This document shows, in pieces, positions 53,836 through 64,000 of a DNA stretch of 64,000 nucleotides. Position numbers and translations under genes: made by a program. Within the stretch, counting starts at the first letter, position 1. Each line of letters starts with the position of its first letter. The notes beneath the pieces were generated by a model. It did no database searches and was not told where the DNA came from. It saw only the letters and a program-made list of their open reading frames with translations. The DNA is from an uncultured Shimia sp. (GTDB lineage Bacteria; Pseudomonadota; Alphaproteobacteria; Rhodobacterales; Rhodobacteraceae), in assembly GCF_947493595.1 (NCBI RefSeq), contig NZ_CANLRL010000003.1, positions 248,001 through 312,000 of the forward strand, read 5' to 3'.

Positions 53836-56205
53836 ATGGCCACAACTTTTGATGTTTTTTACCTTGGCGTCTTTGCGGACCTCGATCCTGTCGAGGGCAA
53901 TTATTCTGCCGAAAATGCCGAGAGCTTGGTTGGCTCCACTATTGGAGCGGCCGAAGCTCCGTTGTCTGGAAATCTGGTCACGATGAACCAGTACAACTCA
54001 GACTATGGGGAATATTACATTAATAACGCTGAAGGTAATGACCAATTTCAGATTGATGGCAGCGCGGCGCTGACCTTTGACAGCTTGGTCGAGTACAGCG
54101 CAACCATCACATACACGGATGGCACCACGGCGAATATTACAGCTGTGGTTTTCCAGTCCACAGATGGGCAGACTTTCCTTGCGCCAGAATACGAAGCCAA
54201 TGCCGATCAGGACGCGCTTGAGGCCAAAGCGATTCAGTCGCTAACTCTGAACAGCGTCGTCACGGCTGGCGACGACATGTACAGCAGCCGTATGGATGGC
54301 GACTATGTTGTCGAAGATGGCGTTGTGGGCGGCACGGAGACCGGAGACGACGTGTCTGCAGGTTATACAGACTCTGACGGCGATCAGGTCACCGATGGTG
54401 CCGACAGTATCAGTGCCGCAGGTGGAGATGACACGATCTACGCTGGTGACGGGGACGACACGATTGATGCCGGCACTGGCAATGACGCGGTCTGGGCCGA
54501 AGAGGGCCACGATTCCGTGCTTGGGGGCGACGGTCTCGACACGCTCTATGGGATGTCTGGAGATGACACGATCAGCGCAGGCGATGGCCAAGACGTTGTC
54601 TATGGCGGCTTAGGCGCAGACGCCATTGAAGGCGGGGCTGGTGCTGACTTTCTCTCCGGTGGCGGCGACAATGACACGATTTTTGGGGACTCCGACAGTA
54701 ATCCATCCGAAGATTGGCAGATCCATTCAAGCTGGAATGCGTACTACCTTGGCACAGCTGGGGACATGGATGGGGATGAGAGCGCTGGTTACACCAATAA
54801 CGCGGCGAACATACTTGGCAGCTACGGCGAGGCTGACGATCCTTTGTCCGGCCATGTTGTGCGCGTGGATATCAATGACCTCGACGGGGATGGCGGCGTT
54901 GATGAAAATGACGAGATGGCTGTCGGCGCCACCTCGGAGATGTCGATTGATGGTGCGCAGCAGGTCATGGATTCCAATGCCGGATACCATGCGACTGTAA
55001 CGTTTGAGGATGGATCCACGGGGACATTTACAGCGGTTGTCTTCCAAACGGTGGACGGGAACTTCTACCTCGCGCCTGAGTACAGCAACAACGCCGATAT
55101 GGAGTTGTTGTCGAGCAAACCGATTCAGTCAATCTCGCTGGACAGTGTCTATACGGACGACAACTATCTGGTGGCGGAACGCTGGGACGAAATTGACCCA
55201 GAAGCGGGCGGGGACGACACCATTTACGCCGGTGAAGGCGACGATGTTGCTTACGGCGAAGCCGGGAATGACACGATTTTTGGTGAATCCGGGAACGACA
55301 CGCTGGATGGCGGAGTTGGCGATGACAAGCTGCTGGGCGGGACCGGAGATGATGTGTTTGTCGTCAGTGGCGGCAATGACACCATCGGCGATTTCAACAC
55401 TGGTAATACCGGCGCGCTCAACGATGGGGACAGCAGCAACAATGATTTTGTTGATCTGAGCGGGCATTACGATTCCATGCATGAGCTGCATGCGGATATG
55501 GCCGATGATGGCCTTCTCAATCAGTCCAACTCGCTGGATGCCAAAGGCAACGCGGTCGACTATTCCGACAACACGCAGTTTGGCGATGGCAGTCTGAGTT
55601 TCACCGGAAATGTGCAGCTGACAGCGGACAACACCGGTGTGGTGTGCTTCACCACCGGCACGATGATCCTGACGCCGCAGGGGGAGCGGCCGATCGATAG
55701 CCTGAAGCCGGGCGACATGGTCACCACGATGGACAACGGGCCGCAGCCGATTGTGTGGATTGGCAGCACGTCCCTGTCGAGCCATCAGCTGCGCGCGCAG
55801 CCGAAGTTGCGGCCAATCCATATCAATGCCGGTGTCCTTGGCGCGGATCGACCATTGTTGGTGTCGCCGCAGCATGGTGTGCTTTTGCCGGGCAGTGACA
55901 TTCTGGTGCGGGCGACCCATTTGCATCGCTTTATCAGTGGCACGCGGGTGGCGCTGGGCAAACAAGAGGTGACCTACTTCCACATGATGTTTGAGCGCCA
56001 TCAGATTGTGTTTTCCAACGGCAGCCCCAGCGAGAGCCTTTATCCGGGGCCAATGGCCTTGCAGGCGATGAACGCGGAGGCGCGGGCCGAAATCGACACG
56101 CTGTTCCCCGGCGTGTTGGGCGTGTCCGTGCGGGACAAGGTGGCGCAGCTTTATGGCGAGACCGTCCGCGAAGTGGTGCGCAAGCCGGGGCGCGACGTGG
56201 CTTGA
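53836..56205 (+). CDS. RTX calcium-binding protein with a C-terminal Hint domain
   Basis: A 789-residue acidic protein with no signal peptide, as expected for type I secretion. It has two copies of an unrecognised domain of about 150 residues (5-158 and 298-455), each followed by RTX GGxGxDxxx nonapeptides (185-280 and 460-545). A Hint_2 domain runs from Cys604 (VCFTTGTMILTPQGERPIDS) to about 740. Hint domains can self-splice or autocleave. No HlyB/HlyD-like genes are nearby. A 15-bp terminator separates it from the convergent RTX gene. Confidence 0.85.
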   Translation: MATTFDVFYLGVFADLDPVEGNYSAENAESLVGSTIGAAEAPLSGNLVTMNQYNSDYGEYYINNAEGNDQFQIDGSAALTFDSLVEYSATITYTDGTTANITAVVFQSTDGQTFLAPEYEANADQDALEAKAIQSLTLNSVVTAGDDMYSSRMDGDYVVEDGVVGGTETGDDVSAGYTDSDGDQVTDGADSISAAGGDDTIYAGDGDDTIDAGTGNDAVWAEEGHDSVLGGDGLDTLYGMSGDDTISAGDGQDVVYGGLGADAIEGGAGADFLSGGGDNDTIFGDSDSNPSEDWQIHSSWNAYYLGTAGDMDGDESAGYTNNAANILGSYGEADDPLSGHVVRVDINDLDGDGGVDENDEMAVGATSEMSIDGAQQVMDSNAGYHATVTFEDGSTGTFTAVVFQTVDGNFYLAPEYSNNADMELLSSKPIQSISLDSVYTDDNYLVAERWDEIDPEAGGDDTIYAGEGDDVAYGEAGNDTIFGESGNDTLDGGVGDDKLLGGTGDDVFVVSGGNDTIGDFNTGNTGALNDGDSSNNDFVDLSGHYDSMHELHADMADDGLLNQSNSLDAKGNAVDYSDNTQFGDGSLSFTGNVQLTADNTGVVCFTTGTMILTPQGERPIDSLKPGDMVTTMDNGPQPIVWIGSTSLSSHQLRAQPKLRPIHINAGVLGADRPLLVSPQHGVLLPGSDILVRATHLHRFISGTRVALGKQEVTYFHMMFERHQIVFSNGSPSESLYPGPMALQAMNAEARAEIDTLFPGVLGVSVRDKVAQLYGETVREVVRKPGRDVA

Positions 56206-56219
56206 TCTGAAGCAGACGC

Positions 56220-56253
56220 AAAACGGGCGGCCTTGGAAAAGGCCGCCCGTTTT
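56220..56253. terminator. Perfect bidirectional terminator between two RTX genes
   Basis: AAAACGGGCGGCCTT and AAGGCCGCCCGTTTT form a perfect 15-bp stem with a GGAA tetraloop. The flanking A and T tracts serve both directions. It lies 14 bases after the Hint gene stop and 22 bases before the stop of the convergent gene. Confidence 0.92.
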
Positions 56254-56275
56254 GGTTTCGCGCTACAGAAAGCGC

Positions 56276-58549
56276 CTACAACTGAATGAAGTCATCGTTG
56301 CCAATGAGCGAATAGTAGATGTCCTCAAAGGTCAGCACCTGGCCATTGTCAAAGCGGACTTCGACGGTGAAGTAGCCAAGTCTCCAAATCGTGGCATAGT
56401 TGCCATCGCCGTCGAGGTCGCGGAAGCCATCCGCCTCGACCTTGTCTATGCCGTTTTCGAAGTCAGTGATGGTGTCGTTGCCATCGCCCACGTTAAAGTG
56501 GAACACATCGGCGCCGGACCCACCATAAAGATTGTCGTTGTTAGAACCACCGTCGATGAAATCATCACCGCTGTCTCCGCGAAGCGTGTCGTTACCGCTG
56601 CCGCCAAACAGGCGATCCTTGCCGCTGCCGCCGTAAAGGTTGTCGCCCGAGGTGCCGCCATAAAGGGTGTCGTTGCCTGAGCCGCCATAGAGCCGGTCGT
56701 TGCCGCTGCCGCCGTCGAGCCGGTCGTTGCCGGAGCCGCCGTCGAGTTTGTCGCTCCCGCTGCGGCCATAGAGCCGGTCGTTACCGCCATAGCTTTTCAG
56801 AGTGTTGGACCCGTCGGTGCCGTACATTGTGTCAGACCCGGTGCGTGACCCAGAAGCGCCTTCGAAGTTGCGGATTGTGTCGTTTTCGCCCCAAGATCCG
56901 GAAACGGTGTTGGCCCGCAGGTCGATGTTGATGCCATTTTTGCTGTCGTAGTAGCTGATGTAGTCCGTTCCGGAGCCGCCATCGAAGCTTTCTTTGCCGC
57001 CGCCAACTTTCACATAGTCATTGCCAGAGCCCAGGTCGACGGTGTCGTTGCCGCCCCCCGCATAGACTTTGTCGTTGCCGCCGCCGGAAAAAATCTTGTC
57101 ATTGCCACCGTAGGTTTTGATCTTGTTGGCGCCTGAGTTGCCATAAATGGAGTCATGCCCGGTTTTGGAGCCGGAGACGTTTTCAAAACCGCTGATCACA
57201 TCGTTGTTGGCCCAGGAGCCGGACACCGCATTGGTTGACAGATTCACGGTCACGCCGTTGGCGCTGTCGTAGTAGCTGAGATAGTCGATGCCATTGCCGC
57301 CGTGGAATTCTTCTTTGCCGCCTCCGGCTTTGACATAATCGTTGCCGTCGCCGAGGTAGACTTTGTCGGCGCCTTTGCCGGCGTAGACTTTGTCATTGCC
57401 GCCATAGGTCTTGATGGTGTTGGCGCCGGAGGTGCCATAGATGCGGTCATCACCGGTACGGGAGCCAGACACGCTTTCAAAGCCGCTGATGGTGTCGTTG
57501 GCAGCCCAGGAGCCAGACACCTCATTGGTGGCGAGGTTGATCGTCACCCCGTTCTTACTGTCGTAGTAGCTGATGTAGTCTTTGCCTGCGCCACCGTGGA
57601 ATTCTTCGCGGCCGCCGCCAACGCGGACGTAGTCATTGCCGTCCCCAAGATGCACAACGTCGTTGCCTTTGCGAGCGTAGACCTTGTCGTTGCCGCCGGC
57701 GGCATGAATGACATCGGCTTGGCTGGTACCGTTAATGGTTTGGTTGGTGTCGTCGCCAAAGATTTCGCCCGCGGCGGTCACCATCGCGGTGTAAGAGCCG
57801 AGGTGGGTCAGATTCAACTCGTCTTCGCCATATCCCCACCGATGTTCCACAGACACGTAGTAGGTCGCGGTCTCGGAGATGGTGAGTTCAATCCTGTTCA
57901 ATGAGGAGGCGCTGGTGCGGGCAATGACATTGCCGTCTGCGTCCAGAATCGACAAGGGGATGTAGTCCAGGCCGTCACCGTCGCCAGGCGTCACATCGAT
58001 GGAGTAAGTCTCGCCGGCGGTCAGGGTCACGGCAAACATGTCGACATCGTAGCGATAGTCGATGCTGCCAGAGAACTCGGTGCCCACTTCAGTGGCGGTT
58101 GCCTCGGCAATTGTCCCGCCAAGGTCGTCAAAGATCTCATTCACAGTGAAGGTGTAGTCGACCGGTTCGTTGATCGACCAAGAGAAGTGCCGTGCGCTGA
58201 TGTAATATGTGTCTGTGACATCTGCCAGCAGGGGAATATTTGCCCCTTCTGTCTCATACCACTCTTCTCGGGTATAGGTGTCGGTGTCCGCGTTGTAGCT
58301 GTAGCGGTACAGGTCGGTCTTAAAGGTGTAGTAGTTCAGGATCGTGTGGCCGGAATCATCCGTATAGTCAAAGCTGAATTCATAGATCTTGCCAGCTTCC
58401 AAGGTGACGGCAAACATATCGGAATCACGTTCTTCAAACGTGCTGGTGACGGTTTCGCCGATATCAATTGCCTGCGCAGTCGCCGGGGTGTTGCCAATGT
58501 CCGGAGCGGGCGCGTTCAGGGGGGCGGCCGAAATATTTTCAAGAGTCAT
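56276..58549 (-). CDS. RTX calcium-binding protein with PPC-like domains
   Basis: A 757-residue acidic protein without an N-terminal signal peptide. Two pre-peptidase C-terminal-like beta domains lie at the start (about 20-135 and 140-255). Three long tandem repeats of about 100 residues follow (near 320-625; each SYYD-x-x-NGV, VSGSW, SGxxTG and YGGNDKVYAG), and then many classic GGSGND nonapeptides up to about 715. The end (DVFHFNVGDGNDTITDFENG) is typical of type I secreted proteins. No protease motif is seen, so it may be adhesive or matrix-like. Confidence 0.85.
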   Translation of the reverse strand: MTLENISAAPLNAPAPDIGNTPATAQAIDIGETVTSTFEERDSDMFAVTLEAGKIYEFSFDYTDDSGHTILNYYTFKTDLYRYSYNADTDTYTREEWYETEGANIPLLADVTDTYYISARHFSWSINEPVDYTFTVNEIFDDLGGTIAEATATEVGTEFSGSIDYRYDVDMFAVTLTAGETYSIDVTPGDGDGLDYIPLSILDADGNVIARTSASSLNRIELTISETATYYVSVEHRWGYGEDELNLTHLGSYTAMVTAAGEIFGDDTNQTINGTSQADVIHAAGGNDKVYARKGNDVVHLGDGNDYVRVGGGREEFHGGAGKDYISYYDSKNGVTINLATNEVSGSWAANDTISGFESVSGSRTGDDRIYGTSGANTIKTYGGNDKVYAGKGADKVYLGDGNDYVKAGGGKEEFHGGNGIDYLSYYDSANGVTVNLSTNAVSGSWANNDVISGFENVSGSKTGHDSIYGNSGANKIKTYGGNDKIFSGGGNDKVYAGGGNDTVDLGSGNDYVKVGGGKESFDGGSGTDYISYYDSKNGINIDLRANTVSGSWGENDTIRNFEGASGSRTGSDTMYGTDGSNTLKSYGGNDRLYGRSGSDKLDGGSGNDRLDGGSGNDRLYGGSGNDTLYGGTSGDNLYGGSGKDRLFGGSGNDTLRGDSGDDFIDGGSNNDNLYGGSGADVFHFNVGDGNDTITDFENGIDKVEADGFRDLDGDGNYATIWRLGYFTVEVRFDNGQVLTFEDIYYSLIGNDDFIQL
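56790..57690 (-). repeat. Three tandem units of about 300 bases in the PPC/RTX gene
   Basis: The coding units SYYD-x-x-NG recur at about 57560-57580, 57265-57287 and 56945-56965, giving spacings near 297 and 324 bases (99 and 108 codons). Unit boundaries are approximate. Such long near-identical repeats can change copy number by recombination and are prone to assembly error. Confidence 0.65.
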
Positions 58550-59005
58550 GGGGAGCCTGGATCAGTTACGTTCTTTAAAAGTGTTTTCGCGCGCCGTTCT
58601 AGCGGGCTTCTTGGCGGCGGAGAGTTTGCGCCGCACCAATCACCCGCAAGATGATCTCTGCGGTCGCTGATTACAAGGTTAATAGATGGTTAACGGAGCG
58701 GCAAAAAAGGGAAATGTGGCGAAATACCGCGCGTTGAGGTCTTGAAAACGGGTGTGCTTGTTGTGGGAGCCTTGTTTTCGCGTGGCCAGGGAGGCGCTGT
58801 GCTGAGATTCGTTTCTTGAGGACGCGGAAGGGCCTTGCCGTTTGCTGCTCTCAATAGGCGATTCTATGCGGTTTGTCGGATGGCCGGGATATGGAAGTTT
58901 GCCAATCGGGTTGACGTATGGGGTTTGCTCATACATCCATAGCGCGAATTAAGCTCGCTTTCAAATACGGGCACCCATTTTTTATATACAGTGATTGGCG
59001 TTACG
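58550..59005. other. 456-base divergent intergenic region
   Basis: This separates the minus-strand RTX gene from the plus-strand glycerophosphotransferase. No gene is seen. The base composition is lower in GC than the flanks near 58930-59005, and a TTTTTTATATACAG tract at 58978-58991 may hold a -10 element for the plus gene. Weak frames exist on both strands but none has a ribosome site. Confidence 0.5.
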
Positions 59006-60421
59006 ATGAAGATTTGCAGTGATCCAAAGACTATTGAAACACTGCTCTCGTTTTATGAGGGCGACTTACGGGAGGCCTTAAAAAGCGATCTTTCCGCTTT
59101 GGCTGTACAGGAAATCCCAGCCAAAAAGAGCGCGGCCGCCAGTCTTCTGAATATGTATCTCTTTGGACCAGAAGTTGCTTATGTATGGGGCGGTGTGCTT
59201 GCCTTTTCTCAGTTGGATATTTATCGGCCCTATATCGCGCATTCTCGGCGAAAAAGCGTTATTATTTGCAAAGGTTTAAAGGGACGGGTTATCAGCAAGT
59301 TTGCCCCCAAAGGGGTGCCGGTTTTCCATTTCGAAGACGGCTTTACACCCCATCAGTATATGGCGGCTTGTGAGCATTTACACACCGCAATTTACGCAAC
59401 AAACAAGGTTGATAACGTCAAATACCTACGTGAGAATCCTCGGATGGTGCACATTCTTGGCTTGCACGGAGATTCGGATAAGCCGTCCTCTGTCACGCGA
59501 TTGAGCTCGATGTATGATTATGTGCTGGCGGCGGATGCCAACGCCACCAATCGGGTGTTGAATTCCAAGCTTCAAATTCAAGCAGACCGGGTTCTGGTTG
59601 TTGGTGGATCGCCAATTGAAGGCGTCGAGACAATAAAAGCGCGCCGACCGATCAAGAACATTCTCTACGCGCCAACTTGGGAAGGGTATCAAAACCTCGG
59701 CAATTTCAGCTCGCTGAAATCCGTGGCACCGTTGATGCAAGACTATAGTGCAACAGGAAACGTTTTGCGCTTTCGCCCACATCCCGGCACCGGGGCGCAC
59801 GACAAGCAGTACAAAGTTATCGCAAAAGAGTTGAAGCAGGTTGCCAAGACCAAAGGAAAGGTTGCGGATTTCAACTGGTCGGATGTGCTGATTGCTGACG
59901 TCTCCGGTGTGATCTCCGAATATGTTTACTCCCGCAAGCCTGTTGTGGTGCCAGTGGATTTGGAAAACCCAAAAATTCTGGAATACATCAATAAGACCAG
60001 TATTCCGGACTATTGTTATCTTTGGGATTTCCGTAGCGTGCCTTTGGCTGAATTCTTGGATAGTATTTCGGCGGATCCTTTGTGGGAAAAGCGGATGGAA
60101 AAGCGTGAAAACGCGTATTTCGGTGCCGAAACGCAAGCAGATGTGGCCAACCTTTTTGAGCAGAAGCTCGATCTGTGTGAATCGATCTGGAAAAATCGAC
60201 TGATGCAAAAAGGGTATCAGCCTTGGATGGGCCGGTCGGAGGCAGACCGAATTCGGTTGCCTGAGGACGGTGCGTTGGCGGAATTGGTGAAATCGGTGAT
60301 GGCAGGCGAAACAATGCTGGAGTTGCGCGAGCGGCGGCTTGTGCGCAAGGGCGGCATTCGCAAGCGCTCCGCGGCCGCTTTGACCCGTTTGGGCAAACGT
60401 GTGTCCAAGGTGCTGAGCTAA
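59006..60421 (+). CDS. CDP-glycerol glycerophosphotransferase-family (TagB-like) protein
   Basis: A 471-residue protein. The C-terminal half has the TagB/GT-B pattern: NILYAPTWEGYQNL near residue 217, RFRPHPGTGAHDKQ near 255, and WSDVLIADVSGVISEYVYSR near 291. That pattern is used by polymerases of glycerol phosphate in wall or capsule. The N-terminal half is unusual. It stands alone with no capsule genes in the window, so its polymer is unknown. It is just left of the island boundary. Confidence 0.75.
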   Translation: MKICSDPKTIETLLSFYEGDLREALKSDLSALAVQEIPAKKSAAASLLNMYLFGPEVAYVWGGVLAFSQLDIYRPYIAHSRRKSVIICKGLKGRVISKFAPKGVPVFHFEDGFTPHQYMAACEHLHTAIYATNKVDNVKYLRENPRMVHILGLHGDSDKPSSVTRLSSMYDYVLAADANATNRVLNSKLQIQADRVLVVGGSPIEGVETIKARRPIKNILYAPTWEGYQNLGNFSSLKSVAPLMQDYSATGNVLRFRPHPGTGAHDKQYKVIAKELKQVAKTKGKVADFNWSDVLIADVSGVISEYVYSRKPVVVPVDLENPKILEYINKTSIPDYCYLWDFRSVPLAEFLDSISADPLWEKRMEKRENAYFGAETQADVANLFEQKLDLCESIWKNRLMQKGYQPWMGRSEADRIRLPEDGALAELVKSVMAGETMLELRERRLVRKGGIRKRSAAALTRLGKRVSKVLS

Positions 60422-60641
60422 GCCCGAGAGGTGGTTCGGCCATACATGCCGCGGGCGAGGCCCGAGAAAGATGTGCGCGGGTAACGGCGTTGGTGATGTG
60501 ACAGCGAAACTGGCGCCGGGCTGTGTCGCGCAGATTTGCTTATGAACTGAGGTCTTTCAGCCTCGGACGCCGCCTGTGCGCCCATCAAGGCAAGGGGGTA
60601 CATGCCAAAATGCAATCGGAAGCGCAATAGATACAGCGAAG

Positions 60642-60689
60642 TGGAGGCGAGTACCGGAATCGAACCGGTGTACACGGATTTGCAATCCG
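60642..60689 (-). other. Displaced 3' fragment of tRNA-Cys (GCA), putative attachment site
   Basis: The minus strand reads CGGA, the TTGCAAA anticodon loop (GCA), TCCGT, the T arm ACCGG-TTCGATT-CCGGT, then ACTCGCC, T73 and an encoded CCA. All of the molecule from about position 28 to the 3' end is intact. The 5' half (acceptor and D arm) is missing: identity stops at 60689 and unrelated AT-rich sequence follows. The U73 discriminator fits tRNA-Cys. This is what an integrated element leaves at its distal end. Confidence 0.85.
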
Positions 60690-60778
60690 GAAAATTTCGT
60701 TGATTTTAAAGGGGAAAATTGTAAACGGACTTGTTTCGTTCAGGGTCACTTTTCAAGAGGTTACGAGGCCCAAGTAAA

Positions 60779-60825
60779 CGGTTTTTCACCGGCTTTTCCT
60801 CTGGTGAAAAGGCAAAGAAAAACCG
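60779..60825 (+). promoter_or_regulatory. Competing inverted repeats in the leader of the replication-type gene
   Basis: CGGTTTTTC (60779-60787) can pair with GAAAAACCG (60817-60825). The overlapping TTTTCACC (60783-60790) can instead pair with GGTGAAAA (60803-60810). The two folds exclude each other. It could be an RNA switch, or an integrase arm site by its place near att. The rest of 60422-60925 (504 bases) holds no gene that I trust. Confidence 0.35.
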
Positions 60826-60925
60826 CTGAGGGGGCGGCCACCCACCTCAACGGCATAGAAGAATATTTCCATCTCCAAACATATGGCATTTCCGGTCTGA
60901 CCTCAACCCAATTGGCGGTGAGATC

Positions 60926-61789
60926 ATGAGCTGGCGCATCGCGAACGAATGCGCCGAGCGCCGCTTTGGCAGTGCTGCGCGCAAGCAGATCATCATGTTC
61001 TTGGCCGACAAGGCGAGCGATGACGGCTCTGGGATCTGGTGCTCCAAGGGGACGATCCAGCGTCACACCGAGCTTAGTGAGAGCACGGTGAAGCGCACCA
61101 TCATCGACTTCCTGCGTGAAGGCATTCTGATGGAGACTGGGCGTCGACACTGCAAGAACGGCTACACCGTCATCTACCGCATCGTTCTGGAGCGCGTGGC
61201 CGCGCTCGAACCCACGGCCGAGCCCGAGATTGAGACGGGGGTCACTGTGAACCCCGTCCAGCCTGAACCCGGTACGGGGTCCACGGTGAACGGGGTACGG
61301 GGTTCACGGTGGACCCCAAACCATCCTAAAACCATCCATAAACCACCTACGCGCAGGCGCGAGGCGGCGGAGGAGGTTGAAGATCTTGAAGCTGAGAAGA
61401 TCTTGGCGGCCTATCCAGAGGACAGGATCCGAGACCGGCGGACCAGTCTGCGCTTGATCGCAGCAGCTGTGAAGGCCGGAGTGGAGCCCGATGACCTGAA
61501 GCAGGCGGTCAAAGCCTATGCCAAGGAAAGCGAGGGCTACACGCGCAGCAAGGTCTGTTTCTCGGACAACTGGTTCAAGATGCGCCGATGGGAAAAGGGG
61601 CTTGCCCAGATACAGGCGGACCGCGAGAAGGCACGAGAGGCCGAAGCCAAGGGGCGTGCCAGCCTCGCCGAGTGGATCCACGAGCGCCACCCCCTCTGCC
61701 GCCACATCACCAACCGGCAGATCGAGGACTTGATTGCATCAAGGCTGGTGACGCCTGAGCAGGTTCGCGCTGCGGGACTGCAGGCGTGA
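60926..61789 (+). CDS. HTH replication-initiator-type protein
   Basis: A 287-residue protein with an HTH_36-type winged helix at residues 20-75 (IWCSKGTIQRHTELSESTVK then RTIIDFLREGILMET), as in phage and plasmid replication proteins. A low-complexity linker at about 95-150 coincides with an iteron-like DNA cluster. The C-terminal domain has DNWFKMRRWEKGLAQI and an arginine-rich helix. It has the layout of a lambda O-like protein: DNA binding at the start, partner binding at the end. The function is inferred. Confidence 0.65.
   Translation: MSWRIANECAERRFGSAARKQIIMFLADKASDDGSGIWCSKGTIQRHTELSESTVKRTIIDFLREGILMETGRRHCKNGYTVIYRIVLERVAALEPTAEPEIETGVTVNPVQPEPGTGSTVNGVRGSRWTPNHPKTIHKPPTRRREAAEEVEDLEAEKILAAYPEDRIRDRRTSLRLIAAAVKAGVEPDDLKQAVKAYAKESEGYTRSKVCFSDNWFKMRRWEKGLAQIQADREKAREAEAKGRASLAEWIHERHPLCRHITNRQIEDLIASRLVTPEQVRAAGLQA
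61247..61350. repeat. Iteron-like cluster plus AT-rich segment inside the HTH gene
   Basis: Five TGAACCCCGTAC-like elements lie at 61247-61257 (+), 61263-61275 (+), 61272-61286 (-), 61284-61297 (+) and 61295-61309 (-). Two form a near-perfect 16-base inverted repeat with a 10-base loop (GGGGTCCACGGTGAAC with GTTCACGGTGGACCCC). An AT-rich tract (CCAAACCATCCTAAAACC onwards) follows at 61315-61345. Repeats plus AT-rich DNA within an initiator gene is how lambda ori is built. Confidence 0.45.
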
Positions 61790-61980
61790 GTGAAGAGATG
61801 ATCGCAGGCGATGCGGTTTGGCTCGGAATTCGAGCTCGTCCCGTGGCGAGAGGCTTAACCAACCTCGGAAGATTTTCATTTTGTGAACGAACTGTTGGTT
61901 GCATTTACGTTTATTTCGTTTATTTTGAATATTGCGAATGGGGCGCAAGATCCCGTCGTGTGAAAAGGAGAGAACTCGTG

Positions 61981-62442
61981 ATGATGCAAGCAAAAGAAGC
62001 GTTCGCAGAACGTTTGCCGGATCAGGTCGAAATTGAAAATGCTGACAGTCTTCGCCGCATCCTTGCCTCGCAAGTGAACGGTGATGAGGCAGTGGAGCTA
62101 CGTCTGGCTCTTGGCGGAAAGCAGATCGAACCAGTGACGCTGGCCCCAGCCCTCGCGGCATCCTTGATGGAGTTGTTGCGGTTGGTTTCAAGCGGCAGAG
62201 GGTTCCGGATGATCCCTGTGGATGCAGAGCTGACGACCCAGCAAGCGGCCGATTTGTTGAATGTGTCGCGCCCACACCTGGTGAAGCTTCTAGAAGATGG
62301 GGAAATCGCTTTCTTCAAGACAGGTCGGCATCGCCGTGTGAAAGCAGCAGATCTGTTTGAATACAAAAAGAAACGCGACACTGATCGCTCTGACGCACTG
62401 TCTGACCTCGCGGCAATGGACATGGAGAACGATCTTTTATGA
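61981..62442 (+). CDS. Excisionase-type HTH antitoxin (VapB50-like) of a PIN pair
   Basis: A 153-residue protein with an N-terminal region of unknown fold (about 1-70) and a MerR/excisionase-type HTH at 83-128 (ELTTQQAADLLNVSRPHLVK then LLEDGEIAFFKTGRHRRVKA). It probably represses the pair and blocks the PIN toxin. An AAGGAGAG ribosome site supports a start here, with GTG at 61978 or ATG at 61984 also possible. The frame is open upstream to 61786. Its end overlaps the toxin by four bases. Confidence 0.8.
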   Translation: MMQAKEAFAERLPDQVEIENADSLRRILASQVNGDEAVELRLALGGKQIEPVTLAPALAASLMELLRLVSSGRGFRMIPVDAELTTQQAADLLNVSRPHLVKLLEDGEIAFFKTGRHRRVKAADLFEYKKKRDTDRSDALSDLAAMDMENDLL

Positions 62443-63014
62443 GTGACTATGCCGACCGTTTCACGGCGCTGATTGACGCAAATGTCCTGGCGTGCGCAAT
62501 GCGCAGAAACATAATCTTGTCGTTGGCCGAGGCCGGTTTTTTCCGGCCCCGGTGGAGCGATAGAATTATGGATGAAACTGCCGGTGCAATCGCTAAGATC
62601 ACGAAGGGGGGCGCTGACACAATCAAGCAGAGTTCCGCTATGGAGCGCGCTTTCCCTGAGGCATGCGTTACTGGGTATGCTGGGCTTGAAGCGGGTCTGG
62701 AGTTGCCCGATCCTGATGACCGGCATGTTCTTGCTGCGGCGATCACAACATCCGCTCAGGTAATTGTCACGGAAAACCTTAAGGATTTCCCAAGCGAAGC
62801 ACTCGCGCCTTTTGACATCGATGCAATCTCGGCCGACGAGTTTATTTCTGATGCCATCGAACTTGACCCACTCGCGGCTGTGGTTGCGCTGCGGAGAATG
62901 CGTGAGCGGTTCAAAAATCCTGATATGGATGCCGAAGCATTATTACAGCGGATCAAGGCTCGAAAACTATTTCAAACCGCTGAAATTTTGCACCAATTCG
63001 TAGAACTTCTGTAG
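62439..63014 (+). CDS. PIN-domain ribonuclease toxin (VapC50-like)
   Basis: A 191-residue PIN_3 protein. Acidic residues Asp13 (ALIDANVL), Glu46 (DRIMDE) and Asp91/Asp93/Asp94 (PDPDDRHV) form the metal site, and TENLKDFP follows at about 111-118. Its C-terminal helical part is longer than in VapC of 130 residues. PIN toxins cut tRNA or rRNA. The ATGA overlap with the HTH gene is the normal layout of a toxin-antitoxin pair. Confidence 0.85.
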   Translation: MSDYADRFTALIDANVLACAMRRNIILSLAEAGFFRPRWSDRIMDETAGAIAKITKGGADTIKQSSAMERAFPEACVTGYAGLEAGLELPDPDDRHVLAAAITTSAQVIVTENLKDFPSEALAPFDIDAISADEFISDAIELDPLAAVVALRRMRERFKNPDMDAEALLQRIKARKLFQTAEILHQFVELL

Positions 63015-63069
63015 CCTGAATAGCCGAGTCGTTCGCACAGAAGATGGCCCCAAGCGAACACGTTGATAT

Positions 63070-63666
63070 CTATCTACGCTCTAAGATCTGTTGCACGACG
63101 GGGTGCATCCATGCAGGGACGTGCCTGCTTTGCTTTGCCAAGAGCTTCCGATCATTGTCGTCCAGTGCGCGTGCAAGCCGGTCGACGATTTGACTATCCA
63201 CACGGTCCTTGCCGACATAACGCAGTGCCTGGAAGACAACCCCGGTTTTATGGCCTGCGCCGACGAGCGTCTTGGAGGACGCGTTCCGGAATTGGATGAC
63301 TTGCCGTCCAACTTTTTTGGTGCGGGTCGGGCCGTCGGTCATATAGGTCGGCTTGGAGGGTACCTGCGTGGAAAGGCCTAATTGATTGGCAGCCATCGAA
63401 GGAGAAGGTTGCAAGATCTGACCATCCTTTCGAGCAATAGCCTTTGCTATGTCTTCGCCGGAAGGCGACAGAAATCCGAAGCGCGGGCTCTTCTTCGGGT
63501 AGTCATACAGCCCCCGCATCAGTCGCCGGATCACACCCTGATTTGTAAGGCGTGATAGGGCCTGATCCACGCTTGCGCGGGATCCTATGTCGAGAAAATC
63601 GCTCGGTGCATAGATTGCGCCGCGATCTCTTCCGATGATGCGTTGCTTGATGTTTGACGTAATCAT
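63070..63666 (-). CDS. AbiEi-like antitoxin/DUF6088 protein, with no adjacent toxin
   Basis: A 198-residue protein with an N-terminal winged helix (IYAPSDFLDIGSRASVDQAL then SRLTNQGVIRRLMRGLYDYP) and a C-terminal domain as in DUF6088/AbiEi antitoxins. In AbiE systems the nucleotidyltransferase toxin AbiEii follows directly. Here the stop is 55 bases from the convergent PIN gene and no toxin gene fits between. It is either orphan or paired with a gene elsewhere. An AAGGAG ribosome site supports the start. Confidence 0.82.
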   Translation of the reverse strand: MITSNIKQRIIGRDRGAIYAPSDFLDIGSRASVDQALSRLTNQGVIRRLMRGLYDYPKKSPRFGFLSPSGEDIAKAIARKDGQILQPSPSMAANQLGLSTQVPSKPTYMTDGPTRTKKVGRQVIQFRNASSKTLVGAGHKTGVVFQALRYVGKDRVDSQIVDRLARALDDNDRKLLAKQSRHVPAWMHPVVQQILERR

Positions 63667-63680
63667 GCTCGAACTCCTTG

Positions 63681-63706
63681 TCAGAAAAAATGGTATGTTT
63701 TTCTGA
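63681..63706. promoter_or_regulatory. Inverted repeat upstream of the AbiEi-like gene
   Basis: TCAGAAAAA (63681-63689) and TTTTTCTGA (63698-63706) are perfect 9-base arms around ATGGTATG. The dyad lies 14 bases before the antitoxin start. AbiEi proteins bind inverted repeats in their own promoters, so this is a strong candidate for its operator. Confidence 0.55.
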
Positions 63707-63780
63707 AAGTCAATGGACCATAAAGTAACCCATGGGTAGGTGCGACTGGCATAGGGCTAAGAGAAGCGCTGGTGGGAAAT

Positions 63781-63823
63781 TTACGCTGCAGCGCAAAATT
63801 TGGAAAATTACGCCGCAGCGTAA
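63781..63823. promoter_or_regulatory. Two TTACGC-GCAGCG repeats
   Basis: TTACGCTGCAGCGCAA (63781-63796) and TTACGCCGCAGCGTAA (63808-63823) are direct repeats that are each near-palindromic, 27 bases apart. They lie in the same divergent region as the other dyads, between the AbiEi-like and HipB-like genes. The spacing (about 2.6 helical turns) would place bound dimers roughly half a turn out of phase. Confidence 0.5.
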
Positions 63824-63844
63824 GTTGTCGCGGACTAGACTGCC

Positions 63845-63899
63845 GCTCCTATGATCTTTAGATCATACAGAGGCATTATGATCTAAAGATCATAGGAGC
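63845..63899. promoter_or_regulatory. Perfect 22-bp inverted repeat before the HipB-like gene
   Basis: The arm at 63845-63866 (GCTCCTATGATCTTTAGATC followed by AT) is the exact reverse complement of the arm at 63878-63899, with an 11-base spacer. Each arm is itself almost palindromic (ATGATC-N4-GATCAT). A TATGAT hexamer lies in each arm (63850-63855 and 63877-63882) and could be a -10 covered by the repressor. It lies 12 bases before the HipB start, so the autorepressor probably binds here. Confidence 0.65.
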
Positions 63900-63910
63900 A
63901 GGAGGCAGGC

Positions 63911-64000
63911 TTGCAGAATTTCGTTCGAATTCCCAGAGATCTTGGGCATGCGGTCCGTCAGGCTCGTCGAGAGAAGAACTGGACGCAGTCCGATCTCGCC
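63911..64000 (+). CDS. HipB-like XRE-family antitoxin (3' end outside window)
   Basis: A TTG start at 63911 with a GGAGGCAGGC ribosome site opens 30 codons to the window edge: MQNFVRIPRDLGHAVRQARR then EKNWTQSDLA. This is the start of an XRE/Cro helix-turn-helix as in HipB-type antitoxins. The kinase partner HipA would be expected next. Because only 30 residues are seen, the class is likely but not certain. Confidence 0.65.
   Translation, partial: MQNFVRIPRDLGHAVRQARREKNWTQSDLA

Follow-up and report, generated by a model that had tools for sequence, protein, structure and literature searches.

Lone 3′ fragments of tRNA genes arising from the integration of mobile elements are described and widespread, the accessible text of PMC9897764 dealing mainly with Thermococcaceae and giving Pseudomonas fluorescens SBW25 as the bacterial example. 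For P. fluorescens Pf-5, class IA sites are documented for PFGI-1 in tRNA-Lys and for a defective prophage in tRNA-Cys, and ICEs in tRNA genes are already known (PMC2647930). Similarly, the exchange of integration modules is known from streptococcal ICEs, in which related conjugation modules are found with unrelated integrases, including two rpmG-targeting integrase groups that share 21 % identity (PMC4701971). The tRNA targets of Rhodobacteraceae prophages are given without Cys in the accessible text of PMC8224337, and integration hot spots of Sinorhizobium meliloti are the topic of PMC11476347.

The locus analysed here lies in a window of 64,000 nt from a genome of the genus Shimia (the host, G000; contig C3:248001–312000). 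Like the fragments of PMC9897764, it carries a partial tRNA duplicate from mobile-element integration, in this case in a marine alphaproteobacterium and in tRNA-Cys. As at the Pf-5 sites in the accessible parts of PMC2647930, the repeat extends over the anticodon and T loops and, as for PFGI-1, an integrase stands beside the tRNA; however, host and integrase are different, PFGI-1 occupies another tRNA, and the tRNA-Cys element of Pf-5 is a 2.6-kb phage remnant whereas ours is an ICE. The combination of related conjugation modules with unrelated integrases is shared with the streptococcal ICEs, although there, as far as the accessible text of PMC4701971 goes, a single conjugation family is directed to many targets and the rpmG sites are at different locations, whilst here two integrase types use the same tRNA-Cys core and the differing segment holds both att flanks. 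Conjugative plasmids of the Roseobacter group (Leisingera sp. M658, Ruegeria sp. YS9) encode a VirB4 76 % identical, and a VirD2-type relaxase 51–52 % identical, to those of the ICE, but these are plasmid records, whereas the element described here is chromosomal, with an integrase and att sites. No description of this ICE was found among titles and abstract openings of the literature on tRNA-Cys integration, Rhodobacteraceae or Roseobacter ICEs, module exchange and Shimia islands. Thus, what is new is this ICE, its kind and tRNA-fragment scars being already known, and its most interesting aspect is the apparent exchange of a cassette at a fixed address.

A lone tRNA-Cys fragment and its intact counterpart

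The first-pass annotation, made from the letters of the window, had noted 48 bases of tRNA-Cys, from anticodon stem to CCA, standing on the minus strand without a 5′ half, and had read them as the end of an integrated element.

60642..60689, minus strand: attachment-site core copy, the lone 3′ part of tRNA-Cys (48 nt, 48/48 identity), at the left junction of the ICE

This observation is confirmed to the base, as all 48 bases equal positions 27–74 of the intact tRNA-Cys(GCA), with the local alignment starting at tRNA base 27 and ending exactly at CCA. Neither ARAGORN nor Rfam (gathering threshold) called a tRNA at this position, and thus no 5′ half is present there. When the 101 bases around the fragment were compared with the host's own genome (4.28 Mb, 23 contigs; E ≤ 0.001), only two places were matched, namely the fragment itself and the intact tRNA-Cys (E 8.6e-19); additionally, 12-mers of the 48-bp core were absent from both strands of the island interior and of the 20 kb left of the fragment. 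The fragment is therefore not a chance match.

The intact gene, expected beyond position 64000 in the same orientation and next to an integrase, was found 57 kb to the right, at C3:365775–365848 (minus strand; 117775–117848 in window numbering, outside the window), with its 3′ end facing the island. Beside it, a tyrosine integrase gene (C3:364453–365712, 419 aa; PF00589, E 1.4e-11) ends 62 bp from the CCA. The distance between core copies is 57,133 bp counting one core, with the right limit at C3:365822 (117822 in window numbering). As the 48-bp repeat spans tRNA positions 27–74 it covers both the anticodon and T loops, like the repeats of class IA sites in Williams' scheme, as cited in PMC2647930. 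In relatives, the repeat starts 44–48 bases from the CCA.

Empty sites and the left flank

Each of the 25 genus genomes examined has a tRNA-Cys. In G009, G021 and G011, three relatives that lack the island, this gene is uninterrupted, as anticipated, with a single tRNA-Cys match each, no fragment and the left-flank genes of the window beside it. The longest flank blocks next to tRNA-Cys in these genomes are 14.7 kb at 81.6 %, 8.1 kb at 78.6 % and 11.4 kb at 83.8 % identity, respectively; the adjoining flank begins with an RTX-like gene in G009 and G021, and one gene further in (53836–56205) in G011. For the other 21 of 24 relatives there was no long match to the window flank in the fetched downstream stretch, which was < 2 kb in six of them owing to contig ends, and short matches at most (G001, G012, G013); hence, the empty-site test rests on three genomes.

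56276..58549, minus strand: RTX-like gene (named by eye from its repeats), chromosomal flank matched beside the uninterrupted tRNA-Cys in G009 and G021

58704..60641, no strand assigned: DNA specific to the strain, to the left of the core and beyond the delimited ICE, not found in relatives

Two long genes in the region 53836–58549 were classed by eye as RTX-like; their repeats produce multiple matches in G009 and G021, which suggests a local duplication.

The fragment had been proposed as an objective left border for the island. It does bound the ICE, but not all strain-specific DNA, as the stretch at ∼58704–60641 was likewise not found in relatives. Directly left of the core is a Glyphos_transf-type gene (58991–60421, plus strand). 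The DNA at 58800–60641 had no match in the 24 other genomes of the genus, nor did the Glyphos_transf-type protein in 148 other genomes of the family; two weak relatives of it (32 % and 36 %) exist elsewhere in the host genome. Alignment with G009 and G021 resumes weakly at ∼58704, with local scores of 32–45 versus 9.5–11 for the 400 bases nearest the core. For G011 there is no clear alignment, and scores of 18.5–20 were obtained in both places, so that values of this size represent noise. The GC content is 0.515 in the 1.9 kb left of the core compared with 0.569 in the window left of the fragment. This extra ∼1.9 kb may have been left behind by an earlier element or may stem from an unrelated insertion.

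With these sites in hand, the possibility that no element is involved, and that the fragment is a tRNA-Cys pseudogene formed by local duplication or a tRNA-like match arising by chance, can be judged. Such an origin would agree with the absent 5′ half, and only with that; it is ruled out by the exact boundaries, the integrase next to the intact copy and the empty sites, and we regard its probability as negligible.

Gene content of the element

Gene content changes to the right of 60689, as the first-pass annotation had stated, with a phage-like replication initiator followed by toxin–antitoxin-like genes. The features of the ICE that fall within the window are as follows.

60690..64000, no strand assigned: left 3.3 kb of the 57,133-bp ICE, the remainder lying beyond the window (delimited by core repeat, gene content and blocks in relatives)

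60926..61789, plus strand: phage-like replication initiation protein, first ICE gene at the left end (phrog_270, E 2.6e-17)

61786..62442, plus strand: HTH_17 protein, probable antitoxin partner of the PIN protein (Pfam HTH_17, E 4.2e-13)

62439..63014, plus strand: PIN-domain protein, probable toxin (Pfam PIN_3, E 5.4e-11)

63070..63666, minus strand: AbiEi-like protein (DUF6088; Pfam and PADLOC)

The initiator had no Pfam match at E 0.001, and its DNA is matched in five related elements at 84–93 %. The HTH_17 and PIN proteins are presumed to form a pair because their frames overlap. From left to right, the AbiEi-like gene is followed by HTH/HipA genes, a uracil-DNA-glycosylase-family protein, type I restriction-modification genes, an N6-methylase/specificity fusion, a PDC-S14 candidate defence protein, a VirD2-like relaxase (E 8.6e-14), a VirD4-type coupling protein (T4SS-DNA_transf, E 5e-87), a 1072-aa protein and DruE. 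Next are VirB6-, VirB11-, VirB10-, VirB9- and VirB5-type proteins, an SLT protein, VirB4, VirB3 and a second SLT protein, whilst the right end is made up of an autotransporter, small genes and the integrase. The mating-pair formation genes (VirB3, VirB4, VirB5, VirB6, VirB9, VirB10 and VirB11 kinds, and the two SLT proteins) were assigned by a Pfam scan that covered part of the island frames, candidates for VirB2 and VirB8 falling outside it. Five features by which an ICE is recognized in sequence were found: att direct repeats, a recombinase at one end, a relaxase and coupling protein, a VirB4-containing apparatus and an uninterrupted site in relatives. Judged from its sequence, the gene set between the core copies is that of an ICE. 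A prophage was rejected, as no phage structural gene was seen among the Pfam-scanned island proteins and no integrase relative was confirmed in viral contigs by pattern scan.

The DruE-like protein (1977 aa), encoded in the interval that separates the coupling protein from the VirB genes, is preceded by the 1072-aa protein (L004:6536–15657; C3:332536–341657). The latter had no Pfam, NCBIfam or PADLOC match, and as PADLOC gave none even at E 0.1, its candidacy as the DruH partner of DruE was rejected. In G020, the equivalent slot is occupied by different candidate defence genes (PDC-S06, LmuB-like, WYL), and this position may be a cargo slot of the ICE family.

Related elements share the backbone

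The same backbone blocks were found in the same order, save for a ∼170 bp repeat, in five relatives. We compared DNA identity to the host for VirB4 and for a chromosomal gene situated 8.7 kb away from the host tRNA-Cys, and on a contig other than that of the tRNA in G007 and G022. The values for VirB4 and the chromosomal gene, respectively, were 93 and 72 % in G007, 92 and 86 % in G020, 89 and 72 % in G001, 88 and 69 % in G023, and 87 and 73 % in G022. That VirB4 is 87–93 % identical in all five whilst the chromosomal gene is only 69–86 % identical argues for mobility of the element. Three relatives of the host VirB4 occur in G007 alone (93 %, 80 % and 70 %, on C7, C20 and C8), which suggests that this genome holds several conjugative elements.

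Taking together the 48-bp direct repeat, the intact tRNA-Cys with its integrase, the replication and conjugation genes, the empty sites and the shared backbone, the fragment is almost certainly the left att junction of an ICE integrated into the host tRNA-Cys by tyrosine-integrase recombination; the earlier reading of it as the end of an integrated element is supported. Crossover would have taken place inside the anticodon stem-loop, such that, at the right end, tRNA-Cys is now completed by the 3′ part brought in with the element, whilst the original one stayed behind at 60642–60689; excision would restore both. The ICE would transfer by its own machinery.

A more restrictive version of this explanation, and one that does not compete with it, holds that the element is dead or only mobilizable, that is, integrated but no longer excising or self-transferring. 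The several large cargo insertions that set the host ICE apart from its relatives would fit such a state; however, long open frames encode the integrase, relaxase, coupling protein and VirB4, each with its main domains, the core copies do not differ from one another, and an arm motif is present on both sides (see below). We therefore consider loss of mobility rather unlikely, albeit deserving of some weight.

Relatives of the host integrase, here termed type A, were sought with a pattern scan that reaches close relatives, and were found at 43 loci in named genomes, with 56–98 % identity. One locus is in a record titled Alteromonadaceae; the remaining record names we take to be Rhodobacterales. 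A tRNA-Cys core (≥ 43/48) lies ≤ 100 bp from the matched integrase end at 36 of the 43 loci, and exactly 65 bp away at 30; the tRNA at these 36 is whole (≥ 65/74) in 30, reduced to the core in five and cut by a contig end in one. The other seven have no such core within 100 bp: three end ∼110 bp past the match at a contig edge (two with part of tRNA-Cys), one matches only in part and has the tRNA at a distance of 1 kb, and three show no tRNA-Cys. In Octadecabacter ascidiaceicola (NZ_FXYD01000002.1; L158 and L161), two type A relatives (86 % and 56 %) are separated by ∼7 kb; a whole tRNA-Cys accompanies one of them and a lone core the other, which makes another stack of the kind described below.

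tRNA-Cys as an integration hot spot

Within the genus, integrases beside tRNA-Cys or its core fall into the following types.

Type A: host; second element of G022; G007 (by contig overlap)

Type B (343 aa): G001, G010, G020 and G023; cut short in G016 by a contig end; truncated in G019

Type C (334 aa): G018 and G024

Type D (361 aa): first element of G022

All four match PF00589. Types B, C and D share 27–40 % identity with one another, and type A had no BLASTP match to any of them at 1e-6. A raw count gives 24 extra core copies, spread over 16 of the 25 genomes, and ∼20 in 15 once likely repeats across contig ends are removed; the four copies so removed (two in G007, one each in G014 and G015) were identified by sequence overlap for G007 and G015, and by contig ends only for G014. 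Tandem arrangements are seen in G022, with an 11-kb element (type D), a core, a 61.5-kb element (type A) and a core, and in G001, with a 71-kb element (type B), a core and then a short remnant of a type A integrase. In G007, contigs appear to join at cores, which points to a stack in this genome too. As far as comparative sequence can tell, tRNA-Cys is thus a hot spot of integration in Shimia, used by at least four integrase types and holding tandem stacks. In a family-wide search with type B, a tRNA-Cys core (≥ 40/48) was present at 22 of 30 fetched loci and at none of the other eight.

That such stacks exist in the genus raises the question of whether the 57 kb of the host might itself be a stack of at least two elements that has lost its inner cores, with the fragment as the end of the outermost. 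This we consider highly improbable, as no core piece of ≥ 12 bases is left inside, and the blocks follow the order seen in five relatives, of which four have their own cores as limits and one is limited by contig ends, with the replication gene and the integrase at opposite ends.

A differing segment around the core

Although the backbone is shared, the relatives divide according to integrase type. In the type A genomes G007 and G022, the match to the host element starts at the core, takes in the integrase and reaches the core at the far end as well. With the type B genomes G020, G001 and G023, the match begins only ∼1.7–1.8 kb beyond the core and, at the far end, stops 236 bp short of the core copy there. 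The two differing stretches adjoin in the circular form, and thus make up one segment around the core.

60642..60925, minus strand: far-end part of the attP–integrase segment, 284 bp including the core (aligned in G007 and G022; core alone in G020, G001 and G023)

60720..60727, minus strand: CGTTTACA, putative integrase arm site 38 bp from the core (motif and spacing shared with the G007 and G022 far ends)

60773..60780, minus strand: CGTTTACT, second putative integrase arm site 91 bp from the core (by motif)

The CGTTTACA motif was absent from the three type B far ends examined. For motif counts, type A rows comprised the host, G007, G022 and the 36 loci that have a core close to the integrase (L129 and L145 among them duplicate G007 and G022, hence 37 distinct), and type B rows comprised four genomes of the genus plus 13 of the 30 fetched loci; the 17 dropped loci were eight without a core and nine with a core but only a 35–43 % integrase match. 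G007 C41, G016 and G019 were left out, and nine hand-picked genomes provided integrase-free flanks. GTTTACA occurs ≤ 130 bp from the core in 39/39 type A integrase-side flanks (37 distinct), with two or more copies in 36, and in 0/17 of type B. At the far ends, CGTTTAC is found at −91 and −38 in 3/3 of type A and 0/3 of type B. Type B has repeats of its own, with TTGAAAC within 130 bp of the core in 16/17 flanks and TGAAACTTTCGC at −79 in 3/3 far ends. Neither set of repeats was found in the other type or in the nine integrase-free flanks. The simplest reading is that these type-specific repeats, including the GTTTACA repeats on both sides of the host element, are integrase arm sites, and that arms and integrase move together.

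Sequence following the tRNA was also compared with the IHF consensus WATCAANNNNTTR. Allowing ≤ 1 mismatch, an IHF-like site is present in the 30 bases after the CCA (in the host, L005:19745–19774) in 35/39 type A, 16/17 type B and 2/9 integrase-free flanks, against a background of 0.45 %; exact sites number 9/39, 11/17 and 0/9, respectively. At the far ends, the same consensus is matched, inverted, in 3/3 of type B and 0/3 of type A. There is hence a hint of an IHF-like site after the tRNA in both integrase types.

When the host ICE is set against its backbone-sharing relatives, it looks like an attP–integrase cassette has been exchanged whilst the target stayed unchanged. Counting against a cassette is the finding that the first ∼25 bases after the core are similar in types A and B. 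On balance, we lean towards the broader proposal that ICEs of the Roseobacter group swap one contiguous cassette of ∼2 kb (far arm, core, near arm and integrase), either in the circular state or when stacked at a single site. Two integrase types with separate arm repeats, and with no link between them by BLASTP, would then converge on the same 48 bases of tRNA-Cys, such that the integration system changes and the address is kept, with stacking at the shared core bringing the partners together.

Conclusions

These analyses set exact ends for a 57-kb conjugative element, and point to the use of one tRNA gene by several integrase types within a single marine genus. Moreover, the occurrence of similar backbones with different integrases at the same core would allow a direct test of att–integrase cassette exchange.
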